Source: Gammaproteobacteria bacterium (lineage in GTDB: Bacteria > Pseudomonadota > Gammaproteobacteria > Steroidobacterales > Steroidobacteraceae). Taken from it: a DNA stretch of 64,000 nt. The stretch covers positions 1 through 64,000 of the forward strand of contig CANGOP010000018.1 in assembly GCA_947455595.1 (NCBI GenBank), written 5' to 3'. The notes beneath the pieces were generated by a model that saw nothing but the letters and a program-made list of their open reading frames with translations, was not told the DNA's origin and made no database searches. The first letter of the stretch is position 1. The number at the start of each line of letters is the position of its first letter. The translations under genes were made by a program, and so were the position numbers. Of this stretch, positions 27,189-50,041 are shown piece after piece.

Positions 27189-28691
27189 ATGTCGAACCCC
27201 TCACCTGACGTACCCGCTATGGATTGCGACTTGCTCGTTGTGGGGGGCGGGATCAATGGGGTGGGTATCGCCCGTGACGCCGTGGGTCGAGGCTACCGAG
27301 TCATTCTCGTTGAGCGCGATGACTTGGCCTCCCACACCTCGTCGGCCAGCACCAAGCTGATTCATGGCGGATTACGGTATCTCGAGCACTACGAGTTCAC
27401 GCTGGTCCGCAAAGCTCTGGCCGAGCGAGAAGTCCTTCTAGCCGCCGCGCCCCACATCACATGGCCGCTACGATTTGTCCTGCCCCATGAACCGCACCTG
27501 CGTCCGGCGTGGCTGATCAGAGCCGGGCTGTTTCTTTACGATCACTTGGCCCGTCGGAAGCGACTACCGGCGTCGCGCAGCATCAACTTAGCAGAACATG
27601 TAGCCGGCGCCCCTTTGCGCCAGACCCACCGTCGTGGCTTTATTTATTCAGACATGTGGGTCGATGACGCGCGATTGGTCGTGCTCAATGCGCTGGACGC
27701 CCACGAGCGGGGAGCCCGAATTCTGACGCGCACGCCCTGCCAGGAGATACGACGCGAGGGCGACTATTGGATCGCGACGCTCACCGGTCGGCATGCCGGG
27801 ACAGTTCGTGCCCGCGCAATCGTCAATGCCGCTGGACCTTGGGCCGATCGATTTCTCGCCACCGCTTCGCCGATTCGCCCGCGCCATTCGGTGCGCCTAG
27901 TGAAGGGCAGTCATATCATCGTACCGCGACTGTTCGAACACGAATACGCTTACATCTTTCAGAACGCAGATCGGCGAATTGTGTTCGCAATCCCCTATGA
28001 GCATGACTTCACGCTCATCGGCACGACCGACATTGAATACCACGGTGATCCTGCTAGCGTTGCGATCGATCGTCAGGAGACTGACTATCTCTGCCGATTG
28101 GCAAGCGACTATTTCAATCGCTCCGTGACGCCCGCCGATGTTGTAGCGGCCTATTCAGGCGTACGTCCCCTGTTGGAAGATGAATCCTCCGACCCGTCCG
28201 CAGTTACCCGCGATTACACTCTGGATTTGAATACCGAGGGCGCGCCATTGCTGTCCGTTTTTGGCGGCAAGATCACGACGTACCGCCGCCTCGCCGAACA
28301 GGCAATGTTCGTATTGGGCAATGCGCTGGACCAACCCGGCACCTCCTGGACGGCTGAGGTGCCGCTGCCCGGGGGTGATATACCCGATGGCAACGCATCC
28401 ACCTATCGCCGACAATTGCATGCGCGCTTTCCAACACTCCCGCCCCGCTTCATCGACCGCATCGTGCGTTCCTACGGCACGCGTGCTGAACGCTGGCTGG
28501 GGGACGGCAGCGAGGCGGCGCTTGGAACCGAGATCGTTCCAGGCCTATTTGAAGCAGAACTGCGCTATCTCGTGTCACAAGAATGGGCACTGACCGCTGA
28601 AGACATCTTGCGTCGCCGCAGCAAATTAGGCCTGCACTTGCCACCAGATGCGGAGCAAATCGTAGACAACTGGATCGCCCACCACACCTGA
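27189..28691 (+). CDS. glpD: aerobic glycerol-3-phosphate dehydrogenase
   Basis: A 500-residue FAD enzyme that oxidises sn-glycerol-3-phosphate to dihydroxyacetone phosphate at the inner membrane and reduces quinone. It shows the FAD site DLLVVGGGINGVGIARDAVGRG, the family motif SSASTKLIHGGLRYLE, and IGTTDIEYHGDP. The C-terminal DAO_C domain runs from about residue 380 to the end. It is 14 bp ahead of glpK, so the pair forms a glycerol operon. No glpF or glpR is visible in the window. Confidence 0.96.
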   Translation: MSNPSPDVPAMDCDLLVVGGGINGVGIARDAVGRGYRVILVERDDLASHTSSASTKLIHGGLRYLEHYEFTLVRKALAEREVLLAAAPHITWPLRFVLPHEPHLRPAWLIRAGLFLYDHLARRKRLPASRSINLAEHVAGAPLRQTHRRGFIYSDMWVDDARLVVLNALDAHERGARILTRTPCQEIRREGDYWIATLTGRHAGTVRARAIVNAAGPWADRFLATASPIRPRHSVRLVKGSHIIVPRLFEHEYAYIFQNADRRIVFAIPYEHDFTLIGTTDIEYHGDPASVAIDRQETDYLCRLASDYFNRSVTPADVVAAYSGVRPLLEDESSDPSAVTRDYTLDLNTEGAPLLSVFGGKITTYRRLAEQAMFVLGNALDQPGTSWTAEVPLPGGDIPDGNASTYRRQLHARFPTLPPRFIDRIVRSYGTRAERWLGDGSEAALGTEIVPGLFEAELRYLVSQEWALTAEDILRRRSKLGLHLPPDAEQIVDNWIAHHT

Positions 28692-28705
28692 TGTCTGGAG
28701 GCTAA

Positions 28706-30196
28706 ATGACCCGCTACGTGCTTGCCTTGGATCAGGGCACAACCAGCTCGCGCTCCATCTTGTTTGACCACAGTGGCGCAATGGTCGCAATGGCTCAGCA
28801 AGAGTTCACGCAGCATTTCCCATTGCCGGGTCAAGTGGAGCATGACGCCGAGGAAATCTGGACAAGCCAATCAGCCACCATCGCCGAAGTGCTCTCCAAG
28901 GCGGGCGCGAACGGGGGTGACGTGGCCGCCATTGGCATCACCAACCAGCGTGAGACGACGGTCCTCTGGGATCGGACGACGGGGCGACCGGTAGCCCCCG
29001 CGATCGTCTGGCAGGATCGTCGTACGTCATCGCGCTGCGCTGAACTGCGCGACGCGGGCCACGAGACGCGGGTTCGCGCCATCACCGGACTCACGCTCGA
29101 CCCGTATTTCTCGGGCACCAAGCTTGCGTGGCTTCTGGACCAGGTTGTGGACGGTCGTGCGCGTGCTGAGCGTGGCGAACTGCTGTTTGGCACCATTGAC
29201 AGTTGGCTTATCTGGAAGCTGACCGGCGGTGAGACGCACGTCACCGATGTCACCAATGCAAGTCGTACGTTGCTGATGGACCTAGCGACGGGCCGTTGGT
29301 CGCAGGAGATGCTTGAATTACTGAACATACCCGCGGCATGTTTGCCGCGGATCGTGGCCTCTTCATTAGCCGCGAAAGACGCGCCGATCGCGCTGATCGG
29401 GTCTTCGCGTATCCCGATCACCGGCATTGCCGGCGATCAGCAAGCGGCGTTGTTCGGTCAGGCATGCTTCAAACCCGGCATGGCAAAGAATACATATGGA
29501 ACGGGCTGTTTTATGCTGATGCATGCAGGCACCGCACCGCCCGTCTCGCATCACCATCTCCTGTCGACAATGGCGTGGGACCATGGCGGCCGTCATTACG
29601 CGCTTGAAGGGAGCGTCTTTGTCGCAGGCGCCGTTGTCCAATGGTTACGCGATGGCCTTGGATTGATCCGGTCATCGGCGGATGTGGAAGCTTTGGCATC
29701 GAGTGTGCCCGATACAGCGGACGTTTATTTCGTACCCGCTTTTGCCGGCCTTGGCACGCCTTATTGGGACCCGGACGCACGAGGTACGATCGTTGGCCTC
29801 ACACGCGGCACAACAGCAGCCCATCTCGCGCGTGCCGCACTGGAATCAATCGCCTTTCAAAGCGCTGACGTGCTCAGCGCGATGCAGGCGGATGCAGCGC
29901 ACCCATTAGTCGAACTCAGAGTCGACGGCGGCGCAACAGCCAATGACCTACTCATGCAATTCCAAGCGGATCTGCTCGGAGTCGACGTCGTACGCCCCGA
30001 AGTGGCTGAGACGACGGCTCTCGGCGCGGCCTACCTCGCCGGACTGGGTTGCGGATATTGGGCCGACGACGCAGAGGTTGCCGCAAACTGGCGCATCGGG
30101 CGTCGATACACGCCAGGCGCAGGTCAAGCCGCCGCTCAGGCGCGACGTGAACAATGGGCGCGTGCCGTCGAACGTTCGCGTGACTGGGCCCGCTGA
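28706..30196 (+). CDS. glpK: glycerol kinase
   Basis: A 496-residue FGGY-family kinase that phosphorylates glycerol with ATP. Diagnostic segments are [18 protein letters not shown] at the start, [48 protein letters not shown], and [29 protein letters not shown] ribosome binding site precedes the ATG. It supplies glycerol-3-phosphate to GlpD encoded just upstream. Confidence 0.97.
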
Positions 30197-33705: not shown

Positions 33706-35073
33706 ATGGCACACCCCCAACCGATCGATGCGGACCGTCTGCGCACCCTACTGGCTGAACGGGACATTGAACATATCAAGCTGGGGGTATTCGACGGCGA
33801 CGCGATCCTGCGGGGTAAATACGTATCCCGAGACAAGTTCCTGAGTTCCCTTAACAAGGGCTTGGGATTTTGCGACGTGGTCCTCGGTTGGGACTCGAAC
33901 GATCAACTCTTCGATAACGTCAAATACACCGGCTGGCATACGGCGTATCCCGACGCACCCATTCGGGTGCTGCCGGAAACGTTCCGTGATATCCCATTCG
34001 AACCGCGCACTGCGCTGGTGTTGGGAGAATTCTCAGGGCGTGCCGAGGCAGTCTGCCCTCGCGGAACCCTGCGTCGCGTGCTCGCGCGAGCCAAGAATCT
34101 CGGCTACGACGTCAACGCGTCAGCCGAATTCGAGTTCTTCATGTTTGAGGAAACACCTGATTCTGTGCGGGAAAAAGGCTTCCGCAATCTGAAGCCCATG
34201 ACGCCCGGCTTTTTTGGTTACTCCGTCCTGCGCAATTCCGTCCATGCCGAGCTCTACCAAGAGCTGTTGGATCTGGCTCAGGCTATGCGCTTTCCGATCG
34301 AGGGACTGCACACAGAAACGGGCCCCGGTGTTCTCGAAGCCGCCTTGGCATATACCGATGCGCTCGAAGCCGCTGACCGAGCCGCCTTGTTTAAGACCTT
34401 TACCAAAGTACTGGCACAGCGGCACGGCTTGATGGCGACCTTCATGGCCAAATGGTCGAACGACTATCCAGGACAAAGCGGGCACCTGCACGTCTCTCTC
34501 AAGCGCAGCGATGGCAGCTCCGTCTTTCATGACGCGTCGAAGTCAGACGAAATGACCGACGAAATGCGCTGGTTCATCGGCGGACAACAGGCGTTGATGC
34601 CGGAACTACTCTCGATGGTCGCCTGCACAGTCAATAGCTATTCCCGACTCGTGCCGGGATACTGGGCCCCAACGTCAGCGACCTGGGGCATTGAGAACCG
34701 CACGACAGCGCTGCGGGTCATCAAGGGCGGGCCTCACAGTCAGCGCGTCGAATATCGTATCGCGGCTGCCGACATCAACCCGTACATCGCTCTCGCGGCA
34801 GCGATTGGTTCAGGCCTCTGGGGCATTGAAAATCGGATTGAGCCGGATGCCCCCATTGTCGGCAACGCCTATGATCGCGAGCATCCGAAGAAGCGGCGCC
34901 TACCAGGCACCCTATGGGAAGCCTCCGAGCGCCTACTGGCTTCAAAGGCTGCACGCTCCCTCTTTGGCGACGAATTCGTCGAACATCATGCTGCTACGCG
35001 GCAGTGGGAAGAACGCGAATTCCGTAAAGCCATCACGAGCTGGGAACTATCCCGTTACTTCGAAATCATCTGA
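33706..35073 (+). CDS. glutamine-synthetase-like gamma-glutamylamide ligase (PuuA/GlnA4 type)
   Basis: A 455-residue member of the glutamine synthetase superfamily with a beta-grasp domain (FDGDAILRGKYVSRDKF) and catalytic domain (SAEFEFFMFEE, FMAKWSNDYPGQSGHLHVSL, NSYSRLVPGYWAPTSATWGIENRTTALRV, RVEYRIAAADINPY). The divergence from GlnA is typical of enzymes that ligate glutamate to amines such as putrescine (PuuA), ethanolamine (GlnA4) or isopropylamine (IpuC). First gene of a run ald-adh-amidotransferase-permease, so it probably makes a gamma-glutamyl amine as the first step of amine breakdown. The amine is not fixed by sequence; the neighbours suggest an alkanolamine. Confidence 0.88.
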   Translation: MAHPQPIDADRLRTLLAERDIEHIKLGVFDGDAILRGKYVSRDKFLSSLNKGLGFCDVVLGWDSNDQLFDNVKYTGWHTAYPDAPIRVLPETFRDIPFEPRTALVLGEFSGRAEAVCPRGTLRRVLARAKNLGYDVNASAEFEFFMFEETPDSVREKGFRNLKPMTPGFFGYSVLRNSVHAELYQELLDLAQAMRFPIEGLHTETGPGVLEAALAYTDALEAADRAALFKTFTKVLAQRHGLMATFMAKWSNDYPGQSGHLHVSLKRSDGSSVFHDASKSDEMTDEMRWFIGGQQALMPELLSMVACTVNSYSRLVPGYWAPTSATWGIENRTTALRVIKGGPHSQRVEYRIAAADINPYIALAAAIGSGLWGIENRIEPDAPIVGNAYDREHPKKRRLPGTLWEASERLLASKAARSLFGDEFVEHHAATRQWEEREFRKAITSWELSRYFEII

Positions 35074-35081
35074 GACACCCA

Positions 35082-36473
35082 ATGACTGTGATGCAAAAAA
35101 CGATCTCGCCCGTCGACGGTAGTGTCTATGTGGAACGGCCTTTAGCCGGCGTAGCGGAAATCGACGCAGCCCTAACTGACGCGGCCAAGGCGCAACGCGA
35201 TTGGGCCAATCTTGCGATCAGCGAACGCGTCCGTCTTTTGACTCAGGCTGTAGACGCTTTCGTTGCCGAGGCCTCTGGCATCGCCTTGGAGATTAGTTGG
35301 CAGATGGGACGACCCATCGCACATTCTCCAAGCGAGGTGCGTGGGTTCGAAGAGCGCGCTCGGTACATGTTGGCGACGGCCGAGGAGTCATTGGCTGCGG
35401 TCGTTGCGCCTCCGAAGGAGGGGTTCGATCGACGCATTAAGCGAGTTCCGTTGGGCATCGTGGCTGTCGTTGCGCCGTGGAACTATCCCTATCTCACTGC
35501 GGTGAATGCGGTAATCCCTGCCCTGGCGGCGGGCAATGCGGTGGTGTTAAAGCATTCTCACCAAACGCCTCTATGCGCAGAGCGCTTTGCAGCCGCTTTT
35601 GCTGCCGCGGGCTTACCCCAAGGATTGTTCTCGTACCTGCATCTATCGCGCGCCGCTACGGCAGCATTGATGGCAGACCCGCGGGTTGCGCATGTCTGTT
35701 TCACAGGATCGGTGGACGGTGGACGTGCAGTGGTCGCTGCTACAGCGGGCGGGTTTGCGACGTCGGGGCTTGAACTCGGCGGCAAAGATCCCGCTTATGT
35801 TCGTGCGGACGCACGGCTGGAACATGCGATTGATTCGCTCGCCGACGGCGCCTTTTTCAACGCCGGTCAGTCATGCTGCGGCATTAAACGCATTTATGTT
35901 GCGGATGCGCTGTACGACCGCTTCGTTGAAGGCGTCGTTGCCTTTGCTCATGCCTATCAACTCGGATCACCGATTGACCCGAGCACCACACTGGGACCGG
36001 TTGTCCGAACGTCGGCCGCCGACTGGATTCGTGGGCAGGTGGCCGATACTGTGAGGCGCGGCGCGCGACAACTCGTTGAGCAATCGCGTTTTGCCGCTAG
36101 CCAGGCAGGCACGCCCTACCTTGCACCACAGGTACTGGTCGACGTCGATCACAGCATGCCCTTCATGCGCGAAGAGAGCTTCGGGCCTGCCGTTGGCATC
36201 ATGCGTGTGTCCTCTGACGACGAAGCTGTTCGCCTGATGAATGACAGCGACTTCGGCTTGACGTCTGCCGTTTACACAAGCGATGACGACGCAGCGGAGC
36301 GTATCGGCGATGCTCTCGAGACGGGCACCGTGTTCCAAAATCGTTGCGACTATCTGGATCCAGCGCTTGCGTGGACTGGCGTTAAGAATTCCGGCCGTGG
36401 CTGCACGCTCTCGCGCGTGGGCTACGAACAATTGACCCGTCCGAAATCATTTAACCGCAGGACCGTGATATGA
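35082..36473 (+). CDS. NAD(P)-dependent aldehyde dehydrogenase
   Basis: A 463-residue ALDH-superfamily enzyme. It has the NAD-site proline/asparagine (VVAPWNYPYLTAVNAVIPALAAGNAVVLKHS), catalytic Glu231 (LELGGKDPAYV) and nucleophile Cys265 (NAGQSCCGIKR), plus EESFGPAVGIM near the C-terminus. It is shorter than most ALDHs at both ends but complete in motifs. It starts 8 bp after the ligase gene and overlaps the next gene by 4 bp. In the proposed pathway it would oxidise a gamma-glutamyl aminoaldehyde to the acid. Confidence 0.93.
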   Translation: MTVMQKTISPVDGSVYVERPLAGVAEIDAALTDAAKAQRDWANLAISERVRLLTQAVDAFVAEASGIALEISWQMGRPIAHSPSEVRGFEERARYMLATAEESLAAVVAPPKEGFDRRIKRVPLGIVAVVAPWNYPYLTAVNAVIPALAAGNAVVLKHSHQTPLCAERFAAAFAAAGLPQGLFSYLHLSRAATAALMADPRVAHVCFTGSVDGGRAVVAATAGGFATSGLELGGKDPAYVRADARLEHAIDSLADGAFFNAGQSCCGIKRIYVADALYDRFVEGVVAFAHAYQLGSPIDPSTTLGPVVRTSAADWIRGQVADTVRRGARQLVEQSRFAASQAGTPYLAPQVLVDVDHSMPFMREESFGPAVGIMRVSSDDEAVRLMNDSDFGLTSAVYTSDDDAAERIGDALETGTVFQNRCDYLDPALAWTGVKNSGRGCTLSRVGYEQLTRPKSFNRRTVI

Positions 36474-37633
36474 CGAATATTCGTGGCAACTGGAACTACC
36501 CGACCACCGTGTGGGCAGGTCCCGGTCGTTTAGAGGAAATTGCGGCGGCGTGTACGCGCGCCGGCATGACGCGTCCACTCATCGTCACGGATGCGGGCCT
36601 AGCCACCCATGCAATGACGGCTCGATGCAGTGAGTTGCTGGGCGGTGCGGCTGTGTTTGCTGATGTCGCGGGCAATCCATCCGCAGCACATGTCGAAAAA
36701 GGACTGCGCGCGTATCGACTCGGTCATCACGATGGGGTCGTGGCCCTGGGTGGCGGCGCCGCCTTGGATACCGGCAAAGTGGTGGCCTTCATGTCAGGTC
36801 AGACCCGCCCTCTCTGGGACTTTGAAGATATTGGCGACTGGTGGACACGAGCGGACTCGGCCGGAATAGCACCGATTGTCGCCATTCCAACAACCGCCGG
36901 CACTGGCTCAGAGGTGGGCCGAGCGGGCGTCATTCTCAATGAAGAGACCCATCAGAAGAAGATCATTTTCCATCCACTGATGATGCCGAAGGTGGTGATT
37001 CTTGATCCGGAGTTGACGATTGGCCTACCGCGCCACGTCACGGCCGCCACCGGTTTAGACGCATTCGTGCATTGCTTCGAGGCGTATTGCGCACCAGGAT
37101 TTCATCCGATGGCGGAAGGTATCGCCTTGGAAGGTATGCGCCTCGTGGCGGAATACCTGCCTCGCGCATGCCAAAACGGTCAGGACCTGGAGGCACGCGC
37201 GCAAATGCTCGCCGCTGCGTCCATGGGTGCGACGGCCTTCCAGAAGGGTCTCGGTGGTGTACACGCCATCGCACACCCAGTGGGCTCCTGGTTCAATACC
37301 CACCACGGCCTGACCAACGCTGTAATCCTGCCGTATGTGATGTGCCATAACCGCCACGCGATCAGCGACCGTTGCGCGCGAATCGCGCGCGTGCTGGGCT
37401 TAGCTGACACCAGTTTTGACGGTTTGCTTGCATGGGTCCTGGCGCTGCGGACTGAATTGGGAATTCCGCACACGTTGGCGGAAATCGGCGTTGATGACCG
37501 AAATGCGGACGTGATTGGTCGCGAATCAGCGCTAGATCCGTCTGCCGGTGGAAACCCGATTGCCATTGACGCGGCCGGTTACGAAGCTATTTTCCGCGAT
37601 GCCATCGCGGGACGAATGCCCGCAGCGGCCTGA
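36470..37633 (+). CDS. iron-containing alcohol dehydrogenase
   Basis: A 387-residue group III dehydrogenase. It has the NAD site VVALGGGAALDTGKVV, the PTTAGTGSEVGRAGVI motif, and the metal ligands Asp/His in LDAFVHCFEAYC and the histidines in GGVHAIAHPVGSWFNTHHGLTNA. It converts a primary alcohol to an aldehyde with NAD+. It sits between the aldehyde dehydrogenase and an amidotransferase with overlapping or 3-bp junctions, so it is co-translated with both. The presence of an alcohol-oxidising step suggests that the amine substrate carries a hydroxyl group, e.g. ethanolamine. Confidence 0.94.
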   Translation: MTNIRGNWNYPTTVWAGPGRLEEIAAACTRAGMTRPLIVTDAGLATHAMTARCSELLGGAAVFADVAGNPSAAHVEKGLRAYRLGHHDGVVALGGGAALDTGKVVAFMSGQTRPLWDFEDIGDWWTRADSAGIAPIVAIPTTAGTGSEVGRAGVILNEETHQKKIIFHPLMMPKVVILDPELTIGLPRHVTAATGLDAFVHCFEAYCAPGFHPMAEGIALEGMRLVAEYLPRACQNGQDLEARAQMLAAASMGATAFQKGLGGVHAIAHPVGSWFNTHHGLTNAVILPYVMCHNRHAISDRCARIARVLGLADTSFDGLLAWVLALRTELGIPHTLAEIGVDDRNADVIGRESALDPSAGGNPIAIDAAGYEAIFRDAIAGRMPAAA

Positions 37634-37636
37634 ACG

Positions 37637-38494
37637 ATGTCTGCGCCGCGCCTACTGATTTTAGACGGCAATGTGGCCTCTATCCGGGCCAAGTTAGACG
37701 CCGCTGTCGGTTACGACTCAGGCACCGGCTATGCCCGAATGTTGAAACGGCTCGACCCGTCGCTCGAGTGCGAAATCTTACGGGCTGCCGATGGTCCGGT
37801 GGCATTGCCTGGAGGTGCGGCGATCGCCGATTACGACGGGTGTGTCATGACCGGCTCTGCGCTGAATGTCTACGATGGCGGCGCTGCCATCATGCGTCAA
37901 ATCGATCTGGTGAAGGCGATCCTGACCATAGGTATCCCTTTCTTCGGCAGTTGTTGGGGCCTCCAAGTCGCGACGGTTGCGGCCGGCGGTCGAGTCGAAG
38001 CCAATACCCTCGGACGCGAATTCGGCTTCGGTCGGCGGATTGCCTTGACGGATGCGGGCCGTCGACATCCGCTGTTTGCTGGCAAGCCGGACGTGTTCGA
38101 GGCGCCGACAATTCATCGCGACGTGGTGACCACTCTGCCAATTGGCGCCACCGTGCTCGCAACCAATGAAATGGGCCTACAAGCCGCCGCGTTCACTTTC
38201 GCCAATAGCGAGGTCTGGGGTGTGCAGTACCACCCTGAATACGATTACATCGACATCGCGGCGGTCGCCCGGCGCTATGGTACGGCGCTCGTGACCGATG
38301 GCACATTCGCGGATGCCCATTCGTTGGAGCAATACGCGGTTGAACTTGAGCAATTACAGCGCGATCCCGCCAATACGGCCTTGAATTTCCGTCATGGACT
38401 CGGACCTGGTATGACGAACGAGCATTTACGGCGGCTGGAGATCAGCAATTGGCTGCAGGTCATGGTCACCCCGCGAGCGCGCCGTCATGTCTGA
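37637..38494 (+). CDS. class I glutamine amidotransferase-like hydrolase
   Basis: A 285-residue GATase1-fold protein of the GMP-synthase-like branch. It has an oxyanion/nucleophile elbow FFGSCWGLQVA with the catalytic Cys and VQYHPEYD with the catalytic His-x-Glu. A free-standing enzyme of this kind in an amine operon would hydrolyse gamma-glutamyl bonds, as PuuD and IpuF do, releasing glutamate. It lies 3 bp after the alcohol dehydrogenase gene and overlaps the permease start by 8 bp. Confidence 0.88.
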   Translation: MSAPRLLILDGNVASIRAKLDAAVGYDSGTGYARMLKRLDPSLECEILRAADGPVALPGGAAIADYDGCVMTGSALNVYDGGAAIMRQIDLVKAILTIGIPFFGSCWGLQVATVAAGGRVEANTLGREFGFGRRIALTDAGRRHPLFAGKPDVFEAPTIHRDVVTTLPIGATVLATNEMGLQAAAFTFANSEVWGVQYHPEYDYIDIAAVARRYGTALVTDGTFADAHSLEQYAVELEQLQRDPANTALNFRHGLGPGMTNEHLRRLEISNWLQVMVTPRARRHV

Positions 38495-39887
38495 GCCTGT
38501 TGGACTTGCTCGAACCCTGAGCGGTTGGCACTTGTGGGGCATCGCTGTTGGCCTTGTCATCTCGGGCGAGTATTTCGGTTGGAGTTATGGTTGGGCGCAG
38601 GCAGGCACACTGGGCTTCCTGCTGACCACGGCGTTCATAGCCGTGATGTATACGACGTTTATCTTTAGCTATACGGAATTGACCACGGCCATTCCGCATG
38701 CAGGCGGACCTTTCGCCTACAGCTACCGCGCCTTTGGCCCCATGGGCGGGTACGTTGCCGGCTTCGCAACGCTGGTCGAGTTCCTGTTTGCGCCGCCCGC
38801 GATCGCGCTCGCTATCGGTGCTTATTTAAACGTGCAGTTCCCTGAGCTACCGGCTCGCACGGCGGCGGTGAGTGCTTATTTTGTCTTCATGGCGCTGAAC
38901 ATCGCGGGTGTCACGATTGCGGCTACGTTTGAGCTCGTGGTGACCATCTTGGCCATTGTTGAACTGCTGGTCTTCATGGGCGTCGTCGCGCCTGGATTCT
39001 CCCTGAGTCACTACGTCGCGCACGGGTGGGCTGGGCAGGACTCGTTCAGTTCTGCCGCACTCCCTGGCATTTTCGGTGCGATCCCGTTCGCCATCTGGTT
39101 TTTCCTAGCCATTGAGGGCGCCGCCATGGCGGCCGAGGAAGCGCGCGATCCTCAACGAACAATTCCGCGGGCATACATCGGCGGCATCGCCACACTGGTC
39201 GCGCTCGCTTTTGGCACCATGATTTTCGCCGGTGGGGTCGGCGACTGGCGTGCGATTTCGAATATCAATGATCCCCTTCCACAGGCCATGAAGGCGGTCG
39301 TCGGCGGATCCTCGGGCTGGCTGCATTTGCTGGTTTGGATCGGGCTGCTGGGCCTGATTGCCTCCTTCCATGGCATCATCATGGGATATTCAAGGCAGCT
39401 CTATGCGCTGGCACGGGCAGGATACTTACCGAAGTTGCTTGCCCACGTTCATCCGACACGGCGTACGCCGCATTGGGCGATTCTGACGGGTGGTGCGATT
39501 GGTATCGGCGCGATTTATTCGGATAGTTGGGTTGTGATTGCAGGCCAGCCCCTCACCGCGAGCATCGTGACCATGTCGGCTCTCGGCGCCATTGTGATGT
39601 ATTTGATCAGTCTGGCATCCCTCTTCCGCTTGCGGCAGACCGAACCGTCCCTCACGCGACCCTTCCGCACGCCGGTCTACCCTTTGTTTCCCCTGACGGC
39701 GACACTGATCGCACTGACGGCGCTCATCGCCATCGTTTGGAATAATCTCGAAATTTCAGCGATCTTCGTTGCCGTCGGTACCGCTGGCGGCTTGGTCACC
39801 CTGTACCGAATCCGTCACGGCGCACTGACCCCCACGGGCGACCGTTTACTGTCCGGAACTAATGACGCCGGCGCAGACTCGGTTTAA
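38487..39887 (+). CDS. APC-superfamily amine permease, ethanolamine-permease-like
   Basis: A 466-residue transporter with about 12 membrane helices. The start (LSGWHLWGIAVGLVISGEYFGWSYGWAQAGTLGF) and the segment GIFGAIPFAIWFFLAIEGAAMAAEEARDP match the ethanolamine permease (Eat) group of APC transporters. Related members carry amino acids or putrescine. It is the last gene of the ligase-dehydrogenase-amidotransferase operon, and its resemblance to Eat is the main reason for proposing an alkanolamine substrate. Confidence 0.88.
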   Translation: MSEPVGLARTLSGWHLWGIAVGLVISGEYFGWSYGWAQAGTLGFLLTTAFIAVMYTTFIFSYTELTTAIPHAGGPFAYSYRAFGPMGGYVAGFATLVEFLFAPPAIALAIGAYLNVQFPELPARTAAVSAYFVFMALNIAGVTIAATFELVVTILAIVELLVFMGVVAPGFSLSHYVAHGWAGQDSFSSAALPGIFGAIPFAIWFFLAIEGAAMAAEEARDPQRTIPRAYIGGIATLVALAFGTMIFAGGVGDWRAISNINDPLPQAMKAVVGGSSGWLHLLVWIGLLGLIASFHGIIMGYSRQLYALARAGYLPKLLAHVHPTRRTPHWAILTGGAIGIGAIYSDSWVVIAGQPLTASIVTMSALGAIVMYLISLASLFRLRQTEPSLTRPFRTPVYPLFPLTATLIALTALIAIVWNNLEISAIFVAVGTAGGLVTLYRIRHGALTPTGDRLLSGTNDAGADSV

Positions 39888-39932: not shown

Positions 39933-40997
39933 ATGAGACGCATCGCATACACGGCATTCGCCATCGCCATCGCTCTCACCTCAGCCATGGCTGTCGCGGA
40001 CGATGCCAAACGGCTGCGTATCATCAGTTGGGCTGACTATGTCCCGGCGGAAGTGATTGCGGAATTCCAGAAGGAAACCGGCATCAAAGTCGAAGTAACG
40101 CTGTCAAATAATGAAGAAATGATCTCCAAACTTCGCGCTACCGGCGGAGCGGGATTCGATTTGGCGCAGCCGTCACAGGACCGCATTTTAGGCGCACAGC
40201 AGGAATTTCGAATCTATAAGCCGATCGATCTGTCTAAAGTGCAGGTGGCCGAGTTTCTACCCGACTTGATCGAAACGGTGCGAAAGAATGCATCCTTGGA
40301 CGGGAAACTGTATGCGCTGCCTTACGTCTGGGGCACAGAAGGTCTCGTTTACAACGCGAAGAAGACAAAAATCGCTGACTACACCGATTTATGTCGCGCG
40401 GATCTGAAAGGCAAGGTCGCGGTCAGACTAAAGCGCCCAACCTTGATGGCGTTCGCCTTCGCATCGGGGAAAGATCCATTCGCGTTGTACGGCAATGTCA
40501 AAGCGTACTCCGCACTGATGGATGAAGTGGGCAAGACACTCTCAGCCTGTAAATCCAATTTCCGCTTTTTCTACGACAACAAAGATCAGTTGCTGAATGG
40601 CGTACGCTCAGGGGAAATCAGCGCGGCGATGATGTGGGACTCAGGCGGTTGGAATTTGGGCCGTGAAAATCCGGACATTCATTTCATCAATCCAAAGTCC
40701 GGCGCCATTGCTTGGCTAGACACTTTCGCGCTGCCCGCCCGTGGCAAAAACGACGCGGGGGCCTATGCATGGATTAATTTCACCATGCGTCCAGCCGTCG
40801 CAGCGCAGATTGCCAAGCAGATCGGCAATTTCACTGCCTCTAAAGGGGCGGACGCGCTGATGGATCCGAAGTTGAAGGCGCAGTTCGCGGCAACTTTCCC
40901 AGATGGCTTGAAGAACGTACGCTGGTACCCAGCGATTCCGCCAGGCTTGGAGGAAATCGAAGGCAAGGTTCTCGATCGCATCAAGGCGGCCAATTGA
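39933..40997 (+). CDS. periplasmic polyamine-type solute-binding protein (PotD/PotF-like)
   Basis: A 354-residue secreted protein with a signal peptide (residues 1-22, ending AMAVAD). It has the PotD-family start LRIISWADYVPAEVIAEFQKETGIKVEV and LPYVWGTEGLVYNAKK, typical of spermidine/putrescine binding proteins. It would bind a polyamine or related amine in the periplasm and deliver it to the following three ABC genes, which overlap it one after another. It lies 45 bp after the permease gene with its own GGAG ribosome binding site. Confidence 0.92.
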   Translation: MRRIAYTAFAIAIALTSAMAVADDAKRLRIISWADYVPAEVIAEFQKETGIKVEVTLSNNEEMISKLRATGGAGFDLAQPSQDRILGAQQEFRIYKPIDLSKVQVAEFLPDLIETVRKNASLDGKLYALPYVWGTEGLVYNAKKTKIADYTDLCRADLKGKVAVRLKRPTLMAFAFASGKDPFALYGNVKAYSALMDEVGKTLSACKSNFRFFYDNKDQLLNGVRSGEISAAMMWDSGGWNLGRENPDIHFINPKSGAIAWLDTFALPARGKNDAGAYAWINFTMRPAVAAQIAKQIGNFTASKGADALMDPKLKAQFAATFPDGLKNVRWYPAIPPGLEEIEGKVLDRIKAAN

Positions 40998-42112
40998 ACA
41001 CGAGCGACAACGCGACAGTCGACCTTGAGGTTGATGCTGTCGAAAAAACATTTGCAGACCACCGGGCTGTTGACCGTCTATCGTTTAGCGTTGCGCGCGG
41101 CAGTTTTTTCTCCATCCTAGGCCCCTCCGGCTGCGGCAAGACCACCCTTTTGCGAATGATCGCCGGATTCATTCAGCCCGATGCTGGCGATATCCGCATC
41201 GGTGGTCGATCGATGGCAGGCGTCGCGCCCAACCAGCGCCCGGTTAATATGGTTTTTCAACAGCTCGCGCTGTTTCCCATGATGACCGTTGGCGAGAATG
41301 TGGCATTCGGGTTGGCCCGGCGCGGCGTCGGAAAACTTGAACGGATGCGTAAGGCTGACGCCATGCTTGAGCGCGTCAGTCTCGGTGGATCGGCTCATAA
41401 ACGGGTGGATGAATTATCGGGTGGTCAACGACAGCGCGTCGCGATCGCTCGGAGCCTCGTGCTAGAACCCACGTTGCTGCTCTTAGATGAGCCTTTGGGC
41501 GCTCTCGATCTCAAGTTGCGAGAGCATATGAAGATTGAGCTCAAGCAGCTTCAAGCTGCCTTCGGGACGACGTTCGTTTACATCACACACGATCAATCCG
41601 AAGCCCTCGTCCTCTCGGATCACGTGGGCGTGATGAACCGTGGCCGCTTCGAACAGTTGGGTACGCCGCAAGCGCTCTACTACGATCCTGCGACGCCGTT
41701 TGTCGCTGGTTTCGTTGGCTCGAATAACCGTATTGGCGGACGCGTGGAGTCGATCAACAACAACATCGCGACAGTCGTCACCCCAGAAGGGTGGCGTTTG
41801 GAAGCACGTACGGTCGGCGCCGTCAGCAGCGGCCAAGCGGCGACGGCTTTTGTCCGCCCCGAGGCGGCAGTGTTGGCCCGCGAACCGAGCGGACTTCCCG
41901 GTAACCTACGCGCCCATTCCGGGCGCGTCGATAGTGTGTTGTTTGACGGTGCGAACTCGGCCGTACTCGTCACCGAAAGCCAATCACGGGGCGAATTTCG
42001 AATTGCGCTCCCGCAAACAGGGCAATTTTCCAATTTGGTGTCGGGCGAGACCATCTATTTCGCCTTCGAGGCTGACCGCGCCGTCTGTTTTTCCGGCGAG
42101 GAAACTGCGTGA
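40994..42112 (+). CDS. polyamine-type ABC transporter ATP-binding protein (PotA/PotG-like)
   Basis: A 372-residue ATPase with Walker A GPSGCGKTT, Q-loop MVFQQLALFPMMTV, signature LSGGQRQRVAIARSL, Walker B LLLLDEPLGALD, H-loop YITHDQSEALVLSDH, and a C-terminal TOBE domain. Such ATPases power spermidine/putrescine importers. The start appears to be a TTG overlapping the binding-protein stop (TTGA), with AAGG upstream; there is no ATG or GTG in frame before the conserved domain. Confidence 0.93.
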   Translation: MNTSDNATVDLEVDAVEKTFADHRAVDRLSFSVARGSFFSILGPSGCGKTTLLRMIAGFIQPDAGDIRIGGRSMAGVAPNQRPVNMVFQQLALFPMMTVGENVAFGLARRGVGKLERMRKADAMLERVSLGGSAHKRVDELSGGQRQRVAIARSLVLEPTLLLLDEPLGALDLKLREHMKIELKQLQAAFGTTFVYITHDQSEALVLSDHVGVMNRGRFEQLGTPQALYYDPATPFVAGFVGSNNRIGGRVESINNNIATVVTPEGWRLEARTVGAVSSGQAATAFVRPEAAVLAREPSGLPGNLRAHSGRVDSVLFDGANSAVLVTESQSRGEFRIALPQTGQFSNLVSGETIYFAFEADRAVCFSGEETA

Positions 42113-42987
42113 CGGCATCAGAACCCAATTGGCAGCGACGGCTACTGTTGGCACTACTCTTGGCGCCAGCGCTGTTATGGCTGCTGCTATTGATCGTCCT
42201 ACCTCACGTTGACCTTGCGCTCGTCTCGTTTCGGGAGCGAGTCGCACCACGTGAGTACGTCACCAGTCTGGCCCAGTACCAGACGTTTTTCACAGAGCCC
42301 CTGTACTGGCAAATTTTCGTCCGCACCGCCGTTGTGTCGGCCATTGCGACGGCTATTACGCTTCTCATCGCATTTCCGGTTGCGTGGACGATTGCGAAAA
42401 TCGCTAAAGGGCGTCGCGCCGCGCTTCTATTTCTGGTGTGCCTGATTCCTTTCTGGGTCAGTGAAACGGTTCGCACGCTGGGCTGGATGATTTTATTGCG
42501 CGAATCGGGTGTGCTTCCATCGTTCCTCGTCAAACTCGGCTTGGTATCTGCTCCGCCGGAGTTGCTCTACCACGACGCCACCATTTTGGTGGGTCTCGTC
42601 TACACGTCGCTGCTATTCATGGTCGTCCCCCTCGTGAACAGCCTGGAAAGCCTCGACAACGCTCTGATTGAGGCCGCTTACGACCTCGGAGCCGGCGGTC
42701 TGACTGTCTTGAGAACTATCGTGATCCCACACGCAGCTCCTGGAATCACGGCAGGATGCATCGTGGTATTCATGCTCACCTTGGGCAACTACTTGACTCC
42801 CAATCTCTTGGGCGGGACCAGTTCACAATGGTTTACCGAGCAGATCTACAATCAGTTCATTACCCGATTCAATTGGGAACAGGGCGCTGCCTTTGGTTTC
42901 CTGCTGCTGGCGCTGTCAACCACGATGGTGTGGGTCGGCCTGAAGGCAAGCGGTCAACGTTTCGCTGATGTGATGCAAAGATCATGA
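42109..42987 (+). CDS. polyamine-type ABC transporter permease (PotB/PotH-like)
   Basis: A 292-residue permease with six membrane helices and the EAA loop (LIEAAYDLGAGGLTVLRTIVIPHAAPGI). FLVCLIPFWVSETVRTLGWM and LGNYLTPNLLGG are typical of PotB/PotH. It starts at a GTG overlapping the ATPase stop, with GAGGA 6 bases upstream, and overlaps the second permease by 4 bp. Confidence 0.93.
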   Translation: MTASEPNWQRRLLLALLLAPALLWLLLLIVLPHVDLALVSFRERVAPREYVTSLAQYQTFFTEPLYWQIFVRTAVVSAIATAITLLIAFPVAWTIAKIAKGRRAALLFLVCLIPFWVSETVRTLGWMILLRESGVLPSFLVKLGLVSAPPELLYHDATILVGLVYTSLLFMVVPLVNSLESLDNALIEAAYDLGAGGLTVLRTIVIPHAAPGITAGCIVVFMLTLGNYLTPNLLGGTSSQWFTEQIYNQFITRFNWEQGAAFGFLLLALSTTMVWVGLKASGQRFADVMQRS

Positions 42988-43844
42988 TCCCATCGTTACC
43001 AAGGCCCGCTTGGTTGCGCGCTGCCAATACCATCTACATCGTCGCTTTTTTAATATTTTTATTCTTGCCGTTACTGACGGTAGCAGCCTTCGCCTTCAAT
43101 GATGCGCCCTATCCGGCGCCACCCTGGCACGGCTTCACGCTCGACTGGTTCTTCGGCGATGAAGCGTCGGGTCGCGTTGGGCTTTTTCATGATAGCGAGC
43201 TACTCGACAGCATCCTGACGAGCGCTCTCGTGGCAACCTGGGTAACCGGATTGTCGGTTCTGGTCGGCACGACGAATGCATTTTTGATGGAACGTGCCCG
43301 CTTCCCGGGTCGGCAAGCGTTATCCGTAATGATGTTAGTGCCACTGGTCATTCCGGGCGTCATTCTTGGCATTTCGATCCTCGCATTCGCGAGTCGACTC
43401 GCGGACTTCGCGGATACGGCGTTTGGACTCGAACTCGAATTCCTAAGACCCGGACTTCCGCTGGTTGTGGTTGGGCAATTCTCTTACATAGCAGCCATTG
43501 CCACGCTGACGATCAGCGCCCGCTTGAAGCGCTTTGACCACACTCTGGAAGAAGCAGCTTTCAATCTCGGCGCATCGCGAACCGCGGTGCTATGGCATAT
43601 CACGCTACCGTACTTGAGGCCGGCAATGATCGGATCTGCCGTGATAGCCTTCTTGATGTCCTTTGAGAACTTCAACACCACCCTAATGTTAGTGGGAGCC
43701 GATACGCCACTGACTATCCTGATGTACGGCCGGATGCGGGACGGCGCCACCCCGGTCCTAAATGCCGTGAGCTTATTCCTAATGGTCGCATCTGCTGCGC
43801 TAGCGCTATCGTTGATGCGCCGGGGTCGTCGCAGTAATCCTTAG
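42984..43844 (+). CDS. polyamine-type ABC transporter permease (PotC/PotI-like)
   Basis: A 286-residue permease with six helices, the AAFAFNDAPYPAPPWHGFTLDWF start typical of PotC/PotI, and the EAA loop LEEAAFNLGASRTAVLWHITLPYLRPAM. It completes a full Pot-type importer (binding protein, ATPase, two permeases) with the preceding genes. It converges with the minus-strand amine operon across a 39-bp gap. Confidence 0.93.
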   Translation: MIPSLPRPAWLRAANTIYIVAFLIFLFLPLLTVAAFAFNDAPYPAPPWHGFTLDWFFGDEASGRVGLFHDSELLDSILTSALVATWVTGLSVLVGTTNAFLMERARFPGRQALSVMMLVPLVIPGVILGISILAFASRLADFADTAFGLELEFLRPGLPLVVVGQFSYIAAIATLTISARLKRFDHTLEEAAFNLGASRTAVLWHITLPYLRPAMIGSAVIAFLMSFENFNTTLMLVGADTPLTILMYGRMRDGATPVLNAVSLFLMVASAALALSLMRRGRRSNP

Positions 43845-43883: not shown

Positions 43884-45245
43884 TCAGCTTACCAAGTCAC
43901 TCAACACGGCTCCAAACGCATCAACGAGCCGGTCAACCTGAACTGCTTGCGTTGCTGGGCAAACCAACATCATGTTGTGAAAGGGCGCGATCAGGCACCC
44001 ACGGTTGACGAGACCCAGATGGATCGCCGCCTCAATCGGGGGACAGTGAGCATCCGCAGCCTCCGAGCCATTGCGAAGCGGACCTGGCGCGCACACAAAT
44101 TCCACTCGCGCACCCACTCGCACGACATGCCAAGGCAAATGGTGCTGTGTAATTACCGCGGATAACCCGTCGGACAGTCGCGCCGCCAGAGTTTCCATAT
44201 GGGCATAGGCGACTTCCGTCATCACCTCTTCCAGTGCTGTTCGCATCAAGGCCATTGCCAGCGCATTGGCTGATAGCGTTGTGCCCAGCCCCGAATGGCC
44301 AGATGACTTTGTTCTGCGAATCTCATCCCATCGAGCAGCAATAGCATCGGTGAACCCCCAAACGCTCGCCGGCGTTCCACCTGCGATCGGCTTACCCACG
44401 ACAAACATGTCAGGTTCAAGGCAAAACGCTTGGGTATATCCGCCCCATCCGGTCGAAATCGTATGCGTCTCATCGATGAGTAAGAGCGTGCCAGTGCGAC
44501 GGGTGATCTCTCGCAACGCATCATGGTAGCCAGGATCCGGTAGCACCATGCAGCAGTTGGTCATGACCGGCTCAGCCATGACCACCGCGACTGACTGATC
44601 CGCCAAGGCAGCTTCAAGCCCCCCCAGATCGTTGAATTCGACAACGCGTGTCAGCTCGGTCAGATCGGTAGCTTGCCCGATCAATCCCGGCCGATTTCTC
44701 GCTTTGCCATCATGTAGCTCAACGTAGGTTTCATCCACGGCTCCGTGATAGCACCCATTAATCACCAACACCCGCTTACGACCCGTCACTGCGCGAGCAA
44801 GACGTAGCGCAAAACGGTTCGCATCAGATGCTGTGGTCGCCACCTGCCAATGGGGGAGTCCAAAGCGAGCTTGGAGTAAGTGGCCGACCGCGTAAGCGTC
44901 CTCTGTCGGCAGCATGTAGGTAAATCCGCGAGCCGCCTGACGCTCAAGTGCTCGTAACACCGGTGCGGGAGAGTGTCCGAACATGGAACCGGTGTCACCC
45001 AGACAGAAATCATCTAACTGATCACCATCGACAGTCCGTAGCATCGCGCCCCTCGCTTCCGCCACTGCCAACGGAAACGGAGATGGCCAATCCAACATCC
45101 AATGCATCGGAACGCCCGCATAAAACCCCCGAGCGGCCGACGAAGCCGCGGCGGAACGAGGATGCGCGGCGATAAACCGAGCCGTTTCCCTCTGGACGAA
45201 TGATTGCAGGCGAGTGCGGTCAAGGCCGCGAAGTCGATCAGACAT
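43884..45245 (-). CDS. class III PLP aminotransferase, glutamate-1-semialdehyde-aminomutase-like
   Basis: A 453-residue fold-type I PLP enzyme. It has DFCLGDTGSMFGHSPAPV, TTASDANRFALRLARAVTGR, LLIDETHTIS (PLP-contacting Asp) and the Schiff-base lysine in MFVVGKPIAGGTPAS. It resembles the GSA-aminomutase branch but has a longer N-terminus and sits in an amine operon, so it more likely transaminates an omega-amino acid or aminoaldehyde than makes haem precursors. Its start overlaps the ligase stop by 8 bp; it is the last gene of the operon. Confidence 0.87.
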   Translation of the reverse strand: MSDRLRGLDRTRLQSFVQRETARFIAAHPRSAAASSAARGFYAGVPMHWMLDWPSPFPLAVAEARGAMLRTVDGDQLDDFCLGDTGSMFGHSPAPVLRALERQAARGFTYMLPTEDAYAVGHLLQARFGLPHWQVATTASDANRFALRLARAVTGRKRVLVINGCYHGAVDETYVELHDGKARNRPGLIGQATDLTELTRVVEFNDLGGLEAALADQSVAVVMAEPVMTNCCMVLPDPGYHDALREITRRTGTLLLIDETHTISTGWGGYTQAFCLEPDMFVVGKPIAGGTPASVWGFTDAIAARWDEIRRTKSSGHSGLGTTLSANALAMALMRTALEEVMTEVAYAHMETLAARLSDGLSAVITQHHLPWHVVRVGARVEFVCAPGPLRNGSEAADAHCPPIEAAIHLGLVNRGCLIAPFHNMMLVCPATQAVQVDRLVDAFGAVLSDLVS

Positions 45246-46602
45246 AGAAATCGTACTCTCGCGGGAAAATATGTTCGATCAAGTCCAAATATTCTCCGCG
45301 CTTGGTAATCGAGAACACCTCTAGGTACCGCTTCGGAATGTAGTCTCCCAGCAATCGGGCCGCCACCAGTCGATCAAGTGCCACGATCAAGTCCCCGGGA
45401 AATTCCGGGTCGCCGCCGTCACTACGCCCTTCGGCGGGGGGGCCTGGGTCAATCTGGTGCCGCAGACCATGCAACAAACCTGCCAATACTGCGGCCATCA
45501 CCAGATGGGGACTCGCGTCTGCACCGGCAACACGATGTTCAACGCGACGCGCAGGCCCGTGTTGCGCGGGGATACGGAAGGCAACACTGCGATTATTTTC
45601 AGCCCAAGCGCGCGATGTTGGTACAAAAGAGCCCAAATAGCGTCGCTGCGAGTTGAAATTCGGCGCAAAAATGCCAAACGAGTCATATAACAACGCTTGC
45701 ATCCCGCCGATCGCGAAACGCAGCAACTGCTCGCCACCGTCTAGCCCGAACCGATTACGCCCAGCTTCATCAACGATACTGGCATGAATGTGCAAGCCGC
45801 TGCCTGCCTCAGCGACGAATGGCTTCGCCATGAAGGTCGCTTCCATGCCGCGAGAACGCGCCACGCCTTTGATCAGTCGCTTGAGGAGGACCGCTTGATC
45901 TGCTGCCAACACCGGATCTGCGATGTGACTCAAATTGACTTCAAACTGGCCAACCCCATATTCAGACACGCATCCCGCAACGGGCAACCCTTGCGCCTTC
46001 GCAGCTACATTGACCGCATTGAGAAAATCAGCGTAGTCATCGACCGCTTCCATGGAAAGATTAGCGCCGCGCCGGGGAGGTGATCGGCCGGCATGAGCTC
46101 CAACACGAATCGTTCCATCCTCATTTCGCTTCGGGTCGATTAGGTAGAACTCCAATTCACACGCAACGACGGGATGAACACCTTCACGCCGACACATGGC
46201 GACGATATCCGCCAAGATGAGCCGAGGGTCGTACCAGTATGGACGACCTGATTGGATATTCGTCATCTCGCACAAGACTTGCGCGGTCGGCTTATGGGTC
46301 CAAGGTGCCCGAACGATCCGACCCGGCAGTGGCATAGCCGCACCATCGGGATCACCGTCGGCGCTCCCGTAACCATGCCCTTCAATCCCATAGCCACGAA
46401 CGTCCGCTACCAGAGAAGAGGCGGAAAAGAGAACTCCGCCTTTATATAGGCCTGCTCCGTCAGCAGCTTCGAGGCGCTTGCCCTGCAGAATCCCGTTTGA
46501 ATCGATAACGAACGCGTCGATCGCCTCGATATCGGGATTCTCAGCAAAAAAGGATTCCCATTCCGTTAGGGAAGCATACGTTCCATTTGCGCGTTCATGC
46601 AT
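45238..46602 (-). CDS. glutamine-synthetase-like gamma-glutamylamine ligase, second copy (PuuA type)
   Basis: A 454-residue glutamine synthetase superfamily member, clearly diverged from the other copy at 33706. Seen are VIDSNGILQGKRLEA, VACELEFYLIDPKRNEDG, EYGVGQFEVNLSH, ATFMAKPFVAEAGSGLHIHAS and RVEHRVAGADASPHLVMAA. The last three motifs are those of gamma-glutamylputrescine synthetase. Adjacent PuuB-like oxidase and SpuC-like aminotransferase genes support a role in glutamylating putrescine or a related polyamine. Confidence 0.9.
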   Translation of the reverse strand: MHERANGTYASLTEWESFFAENPDIEAIDAFVIDSNGILQGKRLEAADGAGLYKGGVLFSASSLVADVRGYGIEGHGYGSADGDPDGAAMPLPGRIVRAPWTHKPTAQVLCEMTNIQSGRPYWYDPRLILADIVAMCRREGVHPVVACELEFYLIDPKRNEDGTIRVGAHAGRSPPRRGANLSMEAVDDYADFLNAVNVAAKAQGLPVAGCVSEYGVGQFEVNLSHIADPVLAADQAVLLKRLIKGVARSRGMEATFMAKPFVAEAGSGLHIHASIVDEAGRNRFGLDGGEQLLRFAIGGMQALLYDSFGIFAPNFNSQRRYLGSFVPTSRAWAENNRSVAFRIPAQHGPARRVEHRVAGADASPHLVMAAVLAGLLHGLRHQIDPGPPAEGRSDGGDPEFPGDLIVALDRLVAARLLGDYIPKRYLEVFSITKRGEYLDLIEHIFPREYDFYV

Positions 46603-46627
46603 GATGCCCTCTACTCAACGAATACAC

Positions 46628-47932: not shown

Positions 47933-48594
47933 GCTAGGGGGGCCTTCGCCAGCCCGGTTGCCTTGATCAAGCCCATTCCGTCTCGTATGTCGGAAAGAAT
48001 AGCCCGTGACAGGTCTGCCGGACGCCGACGGCGAATGGCCTGAATCGCTCGGGCGTGCTGATCCGCAAGATGCTCACCATCAAACCGGTCGTAGACGATC
48101 CGCATGTAGGGCCCGAATTGGAGCCAAAGGGTCTCGATCAACTGCACCAACGTCGGATGCGGTTGCGCACGGTAAATCGTGAAGTGAAACGCATGGTTCG
48201 CTGACATATACGCTTCGACATCGCCGTTTTCTAATGCGACACCGATATCCTCATCAACTTTCTCTAGCGATTCGATCGCCGCGTGATCGAGCCCTCGCAG
48301 CGCCTCTCGCGCAGCCGCCGGCTCAAGGAGTTCACGACACGCCAGTAAATCCGCATAGCGGTCGTGGGTCATGGGGGGCACGACGATGCGTCGCTTTGAA
48401 CGGATGTCTACAGCGCCATCGGCGGCCAGACGCCCGAGTGCATCACGGACCGGCATCTGGCTGACGCCAAGCTCAGTCGCTAGGCGGCGGGTGGAGAGCG
48501 GGGTTCCTGGGGTGATTCGGCCCGTTAAGAATCGCAGGCGCAACTCGTCATGTACGTTTGCTCGCACCAACCCGTTACGCTCTCCACCGACCAT
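47929..48594 (-). CDS. GntR family (FCD subfamily) transcriptional regulator
   Basis: A 221-residue regulator with an N-terminal winged helix (LSTRRLATELGVSQMPVRDALGRLAADGAV, about residues 33-62) and a C-terminal all-helical FCD ligand domain that includes ANHAFHFTIYRAQ and the later DQHARAIQAI. The conserved Asp and His residues often bind metal next to the effector. It is embedded inside the amine operon between spuC and puuB, so it likely controls that operon in response to an amine or its product. A candidate operator lies upstream of spdH. Confidence 0.9.
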   Translation of the reverse strand: MVGGERNGLVRANVHDELRLRFLTGRITPGTPLSTRRLATELGVSQMPVRDALGRLAADGAVDIRSKRRIVVPPMTHDRYADLLACRELLEPAAAREALRGLDHAAIESLEKVDEDIGVALENGDVEAYMSANHAFHFTIYRAQPHPTLVQLIETLWLQFGPYMRIVYDRFDGEHLADQHARAIQAIRRRRPADLSRAILSDIRDGMGLIKATGLAKAPLA

Positions 48595-48598
48595 CTTC

Positions 48599-49996: not shown

Positions 49997-50022
49997 CTTT
50001 TACAATCCTTTCTGGTCATAGT

Positions 50023-50041
50023 CGGAGCCGGTCAGGCTCCG
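50023..50041 (-). promoter_or_regulatory. small hairpin at the spdH-spuC junction
   Basis: A perfect 7-bp stem (cggagcc / ggctccg, 5-base loop) spans the last codons of the dehydrogenase gene. It has no U-tract and could reduce read-through or stabilise the upstream message. Confidence 0.3.

Follow-up and report, generated by a model that had tools for sequence, protein, structure and literature searches.

A five-gene operon in a Steroidobacteraceae genome predicted to degrade ethanolamine by gamma-glutamylation

Results

The window analysed here is the whole stretch of 64,000 nucleotides at positions 1 to 64,000 (forward strand) of contig CANGOP010000018.1, from assembly GCA_947455595.1 of a gammaproteobacterium of the family Steroidobacteraceae. 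The source genome, a draft of 3.04 Mb at 87.7% completeness, contains four genes of the glutamine synthetase (GS) family, two of which fall inside the window. In agreement with the family placement, loci from genomes of the same family share 74.5% and 80.2% DNA identity, over 12.2 and 10.4 kb, with loci of Steroidobacter gossypii and Steroidobacteraceae. At 33706-39887 lie five open reading frames, all on the forward strand and with intergenic distances of +8, -4, +3 and -8 nt, whose products were assigned by Pfam and NCBIfam to a GS-like ligase, an aldehyde dehydrogenase (ALDH), an iron-containing alcohol dehydrogenase (Fe-ADH), a class-I glutamine amidotransferase-type hydrolase (GATase) and an APC-family permease (Table 1). 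The expected catalytic residues are found in these proteins and are invariant across alignments of 12 ligases and 9 alcohol dehydrogenases. A preliminary description had proposed a five-gene operon here; the operon is real, its coordinates agreeing exactly with those of the conserved module described below, and because gene order is maintained in relatives, with ALDH adjoining Fe-ADH in 20 of 20 loci, chance clustering is excluded.

Table 1. Genes and gene clusters of the window that are discussed in the text
Feature	Position	Strand	Family, proposed role or remark
GS-like ligase	33706-35073	+	Gln-synt_C; proposed ethanolamine gamma-glutamylase / gamma-glutamylethanolamide synthetase
Aldehyde dehydrogenase	35082-36473	+	Aldedh; proposed gamma-glutamylacetaldehyde dehydrogenase
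Iron-containing alcohol dehydrogenase	36470-37633	+	Fe-ADH; proposed gamma-glutamylethanolamide dehydrogenase
Class-I glutamine amidotransferase-type hydrolase	37637-38494	+	GATase; proposed gamma-glutamylglycine hydrolase
APC-family ethanolamine permease	38487-39887	+	TIGR00908 equivalog
PotFABC-like ABC transporter genes	39933-43844	+	Directly after the permease
Second amine-catabolism cluster	43884-51969	-	Puu-like; convergent with the five-gene module
GlpD gene and GlpK-like gene	27189-30196	+	Upstream of the module; GlpK by eye only

The permease scores 573.7 bits against TIGR00908, the ethanolamine permease equivalog, whose cut-off is 381.75, and would give the operon its own gene for ethanolamine uptake. 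For the ligase, ALDH, Fe-ADH and hydrolase, no NCBIfam cut-off was reached among the matches listed (for ALDH, the best 25 of 44). In the ligase, the metal- and glutamate-site residues E141, E143, E204, E211, H260, R314, E349 and R351 are present and invariant in all 12 ligases, and W320 aligns with the position of E327 (Salmonella numbering), the flap acid of true GS. The same acid is lost in PauA7 (W) and in GlnA4 of Streptomyces coelicolor (F), and GlnA4, like the operon ligase, retains the equivalent metal-site residues (PMC6529630). A GS-like ligase with intact metal and glutamate sites, from which the ammonia-specific flap acid is gone, is what a gamma-glutamylation route calls for, as is the joint presence of an alcohol and an aldehyde dehydrogenase. 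The ALDH carries the motifs LELGG (230) and GQSC (262). In the Fe-ADH, D197, H201, H265 and H279, which from FucO-type enzymes we take to be metal ligands, are invariant in 9 sequences. The hydrolase has the GATase fold, with GSCWG at 104 and YHPE at 198, and its gene stands at the point at which an FGase-family enzyme is encoded in other loci. It is distant from characterised enzymes; all 29 of its PDB matches are weak, gamma-glutamyl peptidase 1 ranking second and GMP synthases making up most of the others. Its predicted role is the weakest of the enzyme assignments.

The module is a discrete unit. We searched 98 genomes, the source genome included, for orthologues of the Fe-ADH and found a close one (54-100% identity) in 26, among them 14 of the 15 genomes of the genus (again counting the source). 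In 20 loci of relatives selected by their Fe-ADH match, a ligase of the window type precedes the Fe-ADH/ALDH pair in 17; of the remaining three, two are truncated at a contig end and the third carries a ligase of a second type, introduced below as the EtoX-operon type. The GATase follows in 14 of the 20 and a close permease (at least 71% identical) occurs in 10. G013, the sole congener that lacks the module, has the order glpD, cupin, potFABC and the second, Puu-like amine cluster (L129), the five genes being absent between cupin and potF with both flanks kept. In three further congeners (G010, G001 and G004), potFABC likewise stands with the Puu-like cluster (L132, L133 and L134) and the ligase module is located elsewhere. 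It is this persistence of the flanks without the module, together with the relocation of the module, that identifies it as a unit.

The substrate can be approached through the transporters that accompany related ligases in other genomes. In Phaeobacter, the TRAP protein EtoX binds ethanolamine with a Kd of 7.9 uM and shows no binding of phosphorylethanolamine, phosphocholine, glycerol-1-phosphate or glycerol-3-phosphate, and the legend for its operon gives the order RpiR, GGAH, EtoV, EtoW, EtoX, ETAGA, GAADDH, GETADH (PMC10132767). A locus of Paracoccus denitrificans PD1222 (L040) reads RpiR, formylglutamate amidohydrolase, TRAP small component, TRAP large component, substrate-binding protein, GS, ALDH, Fe-ADH, and matches that legend gene by gene (PMC10132767); because the two orders are the same, its Fe-ADH would by position be gamma-glutamylethanolamide dehydrogenase and its ALDH gamma-glutamylacetaldehyde dehydrogenase. 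In identity comparisons, the Paracoccus proteins stood in for those of Phaeobacter sp. MED193 and Chromohalobacter salexigens, and the operon enzymes are homologous to the Paracoccus dehydrogenase pair, the Fe-ADH being 55% and the ALDH 52% identical. Both the Paracoccus EtoX (567 bits) and that of Pseudomonas flexibilis (L124; 533 bits) align with PDB 4uab/4xf5 along almost their whole length. We take 4uab to be the ethanolamine-bound protein of C. salexigens, although the PDB listing does not say so; PDB 5dm3, presumably the ligase of the same species, was compared directly.

For a wider survey, genome contigs were scanned with the alignment of 12 ligases, and the best 80 of 586 stretches encoding a relative (586 being a count of relatives, not of orthologues) were analysed for neighbours within 6 kb of the ligase, with orthologues defined by at least 48% identity for Fe-ADH and at least 50% for ALDH. 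A 6 kb flank is present on both sides in only 46 of the 80 loci, and the neighbour counts are lower bounds. An Fe-ADH orthologue lies near 58 of the ligases, an ALDH orthologue also near 58, and both near 51. A GATase-type hydrolase accompanies 26, a formylglutamate-amidohydrolase type 12, both 1 and neither 43; a TIGR00908-like permease is found near 20, EtoX near 7 (L067, L069, L082, L091, L097, L107 and L124), and the two together near none. Six of the seven EtoX-linked loci also contain Fe-ADH and ALDH, L107 being the exception. Cultured carriers of a homologous operon include Thalassospira mesophila (L067) and Steroidobacter gossypii (L095). If each genome is assumed to carry one randomly placed EtoX (12 kb in 4 Mb), about 0.24 of the 80 loci would be expected to have it within 6 kb by chance, as compared with the 7 seen. 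No PuuB-like oxidase occurs within 9 kb in any of the 80. The ligases that adjoin EtoX in other genomes are 64-71% identical to the operon ligase and fall among its closer relatives (at least 64%).

EtoX also stands beside a window-type ligase in 2 of the 20 relatives' loci (L032 and L033), both of the same family as the source organism. In L034 (G058), EtoX and the same ALDH/Fe-ADH pair are found, but both the ligase and the hydrolase are of the other type. Within one bacterial family, EtoX and the two dehydrogenase genes thus occur in company with two alternative ligases about 32% identical to each other (L034 versus L032 and L033), so that the first enzyme of the route has been swapped in nature. 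Transporters appear to have been exchanged as well. On a ligase tree of 93 rows, made by a quick method, with 9 ligases labelled EtoX-linked and 24 permease-linked, the labels need 7 changes, at least 4 of them forced by starred branches, which indicates that one transporter replaced another within a ligase clade that was itself retained, the outcome expected under one shared substrate. The alternation of EtoX with permease, and of GATase with the formylglutamate-amidohydrolase type, was set aside as statistical proof (chance 0.12 and 0.05).

The preliminary description contrasted the operon with the ethanolamine ammonia-lyase (EutBC) route, and that contrast is borne out for the source genome, in which, at 87.7% completeness, EutB has 0 matches. 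None of the 14 genomes of the genus with the Fe-ADH orthologue has EutB. G013, which lacks that orthologue, carries, at a separate locus (L128, 7975-10229), an EutB and an EutC that exceed their cut-offs (725 and 312 bits); it is possible that one ethanolamine route was replaced by another within the genus, in this single case. Among the 98 genomes, 26 have the Fe-ADH, 3 have EutB and none has both (chance 0.39). General mutual exclusion of EutB and the present pathway was considered and rejected: in 369 genomes of the class, which we took as Gammaproteobacteria and in which Fe-ADH matches were counted irrespective of a ligase operon, EutB occurs in 21 and the Fe-ADH orthologue in 34, and the 2 with both compare with 1.9 expected under independence. 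In one of these two (G336), EutB is a fragment.

Two gene groups downstream of the module bear on amine metabolism more generally. The PotFABC-like genes, which the preliminary description did not mention, are followed by a cluster that encodes two class-III aminotransferases (one PRK07480-type), a GS-like protein (LIG2, 45238-46602; 35-36% identical to PuuA), a DAO oxidase (39% to PuuB), a GntR regulator and an FAD protein, and looks like a Puu-type polyamine cluster. In four congeners whose module is missing or stands at another place (L129, L132, L133 and L134), potFABC still accompanies the Puu-like cluster; its membership in the module was therefore judged unlikely, and it probably belongs with that cluster. 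There are exceptions to this pairing: in L025, potFABC follows the permease and no Puu-like cluster is found in the 4.3 kb seen beyond, and in L028 it comes directly after the hydrolase, the permease being absent there. In L135 and L137 it occurs with neither the module nor a Puu-like cluster in the stretch. A shared role of potFABC with the module is possible. Elsewhere in the source genome (C6:152284-154322, L002), a further GS-like gene lies directly upstream of a gene for a PotF-like binding protein, which suggests an additional gamma-glutamyl-amine pathway. On the other side of the module are the GlpD and GlpK-like genes. Three other loci (L018, L033 and L070) likewise have glpD close to the module, and a link to the use of phospholipid headgroups and glycerol is possible. 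In G013, glpD adjoins the cupin gene even though the module is missing, which weighs against such a link.

Discussion

Our analysis leads us to regard the five genes as, very probably, a self-contained module for ethanolamine catabolism of the gamma-glutamylation type. Gene content and order, catalytic residues, homology of the dehydrogenases, linkage of such ligases to EtoX and absence of the module from G013 were seen directly; from sequence comparison we infer the enzyme activities, the order of the steps, and ethanolamine, rather than a close analogue, as the natural substrate. The permease would import ethanolamine, and the ligase would use ATP to link the amine of ethanolamine with the gamma-carboxylate group of glutamate, giving gamma-glutamylethanolamide. 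Oxidation of the hydroxyl group by Fe-ADH would produce the aldehyde, which ALDH would convert to gamma-glutamylglycine, and the amidotransferase-type hydrolase would release glycine and glutamate. Glutamate would thereby be recycled and glycine would be the net product. The source genome encodes a member of the P-protein family of the glycine cleavage system, through which this glycine could be used. This is the sequence of reactions that the preliminary description had outlined, and it remains the best-supported reading because ligases of the window type adjoin the ethanolamine-binding EtoX elsewhere; on that ground, ethanolamine as the substrate appears well supported.

A number of observations pull the other way. 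The operon ligase is 32% identical to each of three ligases of the EtoX-operon type (Paracoccus, SC52 and L034), which are 61-62% identical to one another, and so falls outside the family at the ETAGA position; its substrate is therefore argued from its neighbours, not from orthology. Neither an ADH nor an ALDH orthologue lies near 15 of the 80 surveyed ligases, and 73 have no EtoX within 6 kb; many of these loci are cut by contig ends, and 4 with EtoX are found among the 46 that are fully flanked. Of the 20 permeases near these ligases, 18 are only 33-39% identical to that of the operon. When six permeases, one of them close, were compared with TIGR00908, three passed and three fell 3-12 bits short; the five distant ones (33-39%) account for two of the passes and all three failures. 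The complete lack of overlap between EtoX and permease (0 of 80) is not significant. Clustering of the EtoX label on the ligase tree is slight, as few changes being needed in 78 of 500 shuffles, and the program warned of long branches meeting at the outgroup. Divergent members of the clade have other partners. Around a 55% relative in Rhodobacteraceae bacterium M382 (L039, 6765-16986) lie genes for an ALDH, an aminotransferase, a spermidine/putrescine-type ABC transporter and a protein resembling formylglutamate amidohydrolase, with no Fe-ADH in the stretch; a Rhizobium relative (56%) has a GMC oxidoreductase upstream; and in Burkholderia vietnamiensis (53%) the stretch includes a GATase but lacks an Fe-ADH. 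The M382 enzyme may act on a diamine rather than an alkanolamine, and the wider clade, judged from these partners, may have more than one specificity. In addition, EutB and the Fe-ADH are distributed independently across the class, and a search upstream of the operon for sigma-54 and sigma-70 promoters gave no signal exceeding that of shuffled sequence.

These points leave room for a different substrate. The same chemistry could serve another primary alkanolamine, such as alaninol, 3-aminopropanol or serinol, with ethanolamine as a side substrate and another gamma-glutamyl amino acid as the product. An Fe-ADH and ALDH would suit any primary amino alcohol, the ligase is distant from its EtoX-operon counterpart, and none of the compounds that EtoX failed to bind is an amino alcohol whose amine is free, leaving close analogues possible (PMC10132767). 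We nevertheless consider this alternative improbable in view of the EtoX linkage in 7 of the 80 and 2 of the 20 loci and of a permease that exceeds the ethanolamine-permease cut-off.

Much less likely still is a variant Puu pathway in which the ligase acts like PuuA on putrescine or another diamine, a reading to which the adjoining Puu-like and PotFABC genes and the partners of the M382 ligase lend some colour. The operon ligase scores 193 bits against GGputSyn, where the cut-off is 650, and its identity to PuuA is 27%, as compared with 35% for LIG2. None of the five genes encodes a PuuB-type amine oxidase, the survey placed no PuuB-like gene near any such ligase, and PotFABC remains beside the Puu-like cluster in congeners whose module is missing or at another place. 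An alcohol dehydrogenase, moreover, has no role on gamma-glutamylputrescine. The contrast with Puu drawn in the preliminary description, that an alcohol dehydrogenase takes the place of PuuB, therefore holds. The same description pointed to two related systems, GlnA4 and Ipu. The GlnA4 route is in print. Isopropylamine or isopropanolamine breakdown by an Ipu-like route fits poorly and is the least credible of the alternatives. IpuC is a distant relative of the operon ligase (39% identical), but the families of the five genes include no oxygenase, while the ipuC locus of strain TC1 has P450, ferredoxin and ferredoxin reductase genes alongside, and isopropanolamine, being a secondary alcohol, would leave the ALDH without a substrate.

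Our preferred reading, gamma-glutamylation of ethanolamine, has close precedents, and the suggestion that a complete set of this kind would be new in a gammaproteobacterium does not stand. GlnA4 of S. coelicolor makes gamma-glutamylethanolamide, its product being reported at m/z 189 in negative mode, and the same later steps were proposed for it (PMC6529630). Operon proteins of Phaeobacter were raised on phosphorylethanolamine, and related genes are described as a demonstrated ethanolamine pathway in C. salexigens and Agrobacterium tumefaciens (PMC10132767); the steps proposed for C. salexigens, which is classified in Gammaproteobacteria, are also given in PMC9397018. The operon of Phaeobacter sp. 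MED193 has the same four enzymatic steps as those proposed here, and differs in having an N-formylglutamate amidohydrolase in place of the GATase-class hydrolase, the TRAP transporter EtoVWX in place of the APC permease, and an RpiR regulator, of which there is no counterpart alongside the present operon (PMC10132767). The S. coelicolor GlnA4 cluster shares the GS-like ligase, aldehyde dehydrogenase and glutamine amidotransferase, and in other Streptomyces it includes an ethanolamine permease, as here; in contrast to the present operon with its Fe-ADH, it has a short-chain dehydrogenase and the regulator gene epuRI (PMC6529630). For the last step of that pathway, the discussion of the paper names SCO1615, of the formylglutamate-amidohydrolase type, and a figure legend names a glutamine amidotransferase (PMC6529630). 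The Puu pathway of Escherichia coli shares the overall logic, with gamma-glutamylation, an ALDH and a hydrolase of the class-I amidotransferase fold, and the EutBC ammonia-lyase shares the likely substrate and differs in its chemistry.

The operon thus looks like a mosaic of two described layouts, the Phaeobacter type and the Streptomyces type. What differs is the parts, namely another ligase clade and an amidotransferase in the place of the formylglutamate-type hydrolase; no report of a ligase from this clade combined with an Fe-ADH, a GATase and an APC permease was found in the open-licence literature searched. With moderate confidence, we propose that ethanolamine gamma-glutamylases form two families and that the operon ligase represents the second. 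Enzymes of this second family, which share about 32% identity with the ligase of the EtoX operons, would pair with the same Fe-ADH and ALDH, with either type of hydrolase and with either transporter. They would be widespread in Proteobacteria and might give soil and marine bacteria a major route independent of Eut.

Phosphatidylethanolamine, one of the main lipids of bacterial membranes, is a source of ethanolamine. If this proposal is correct, many GS-like proteins that are now annotated simply as glutamine synthetase could be named as ethanolamine ligases, and estimates of ethanolamine turnover based on eutBC or on the ligase of the EtoX operons would miss many users. An ethanolamine route that needs no B12 and does not pass through free acetaldehyde would then be commoner than has been thought.

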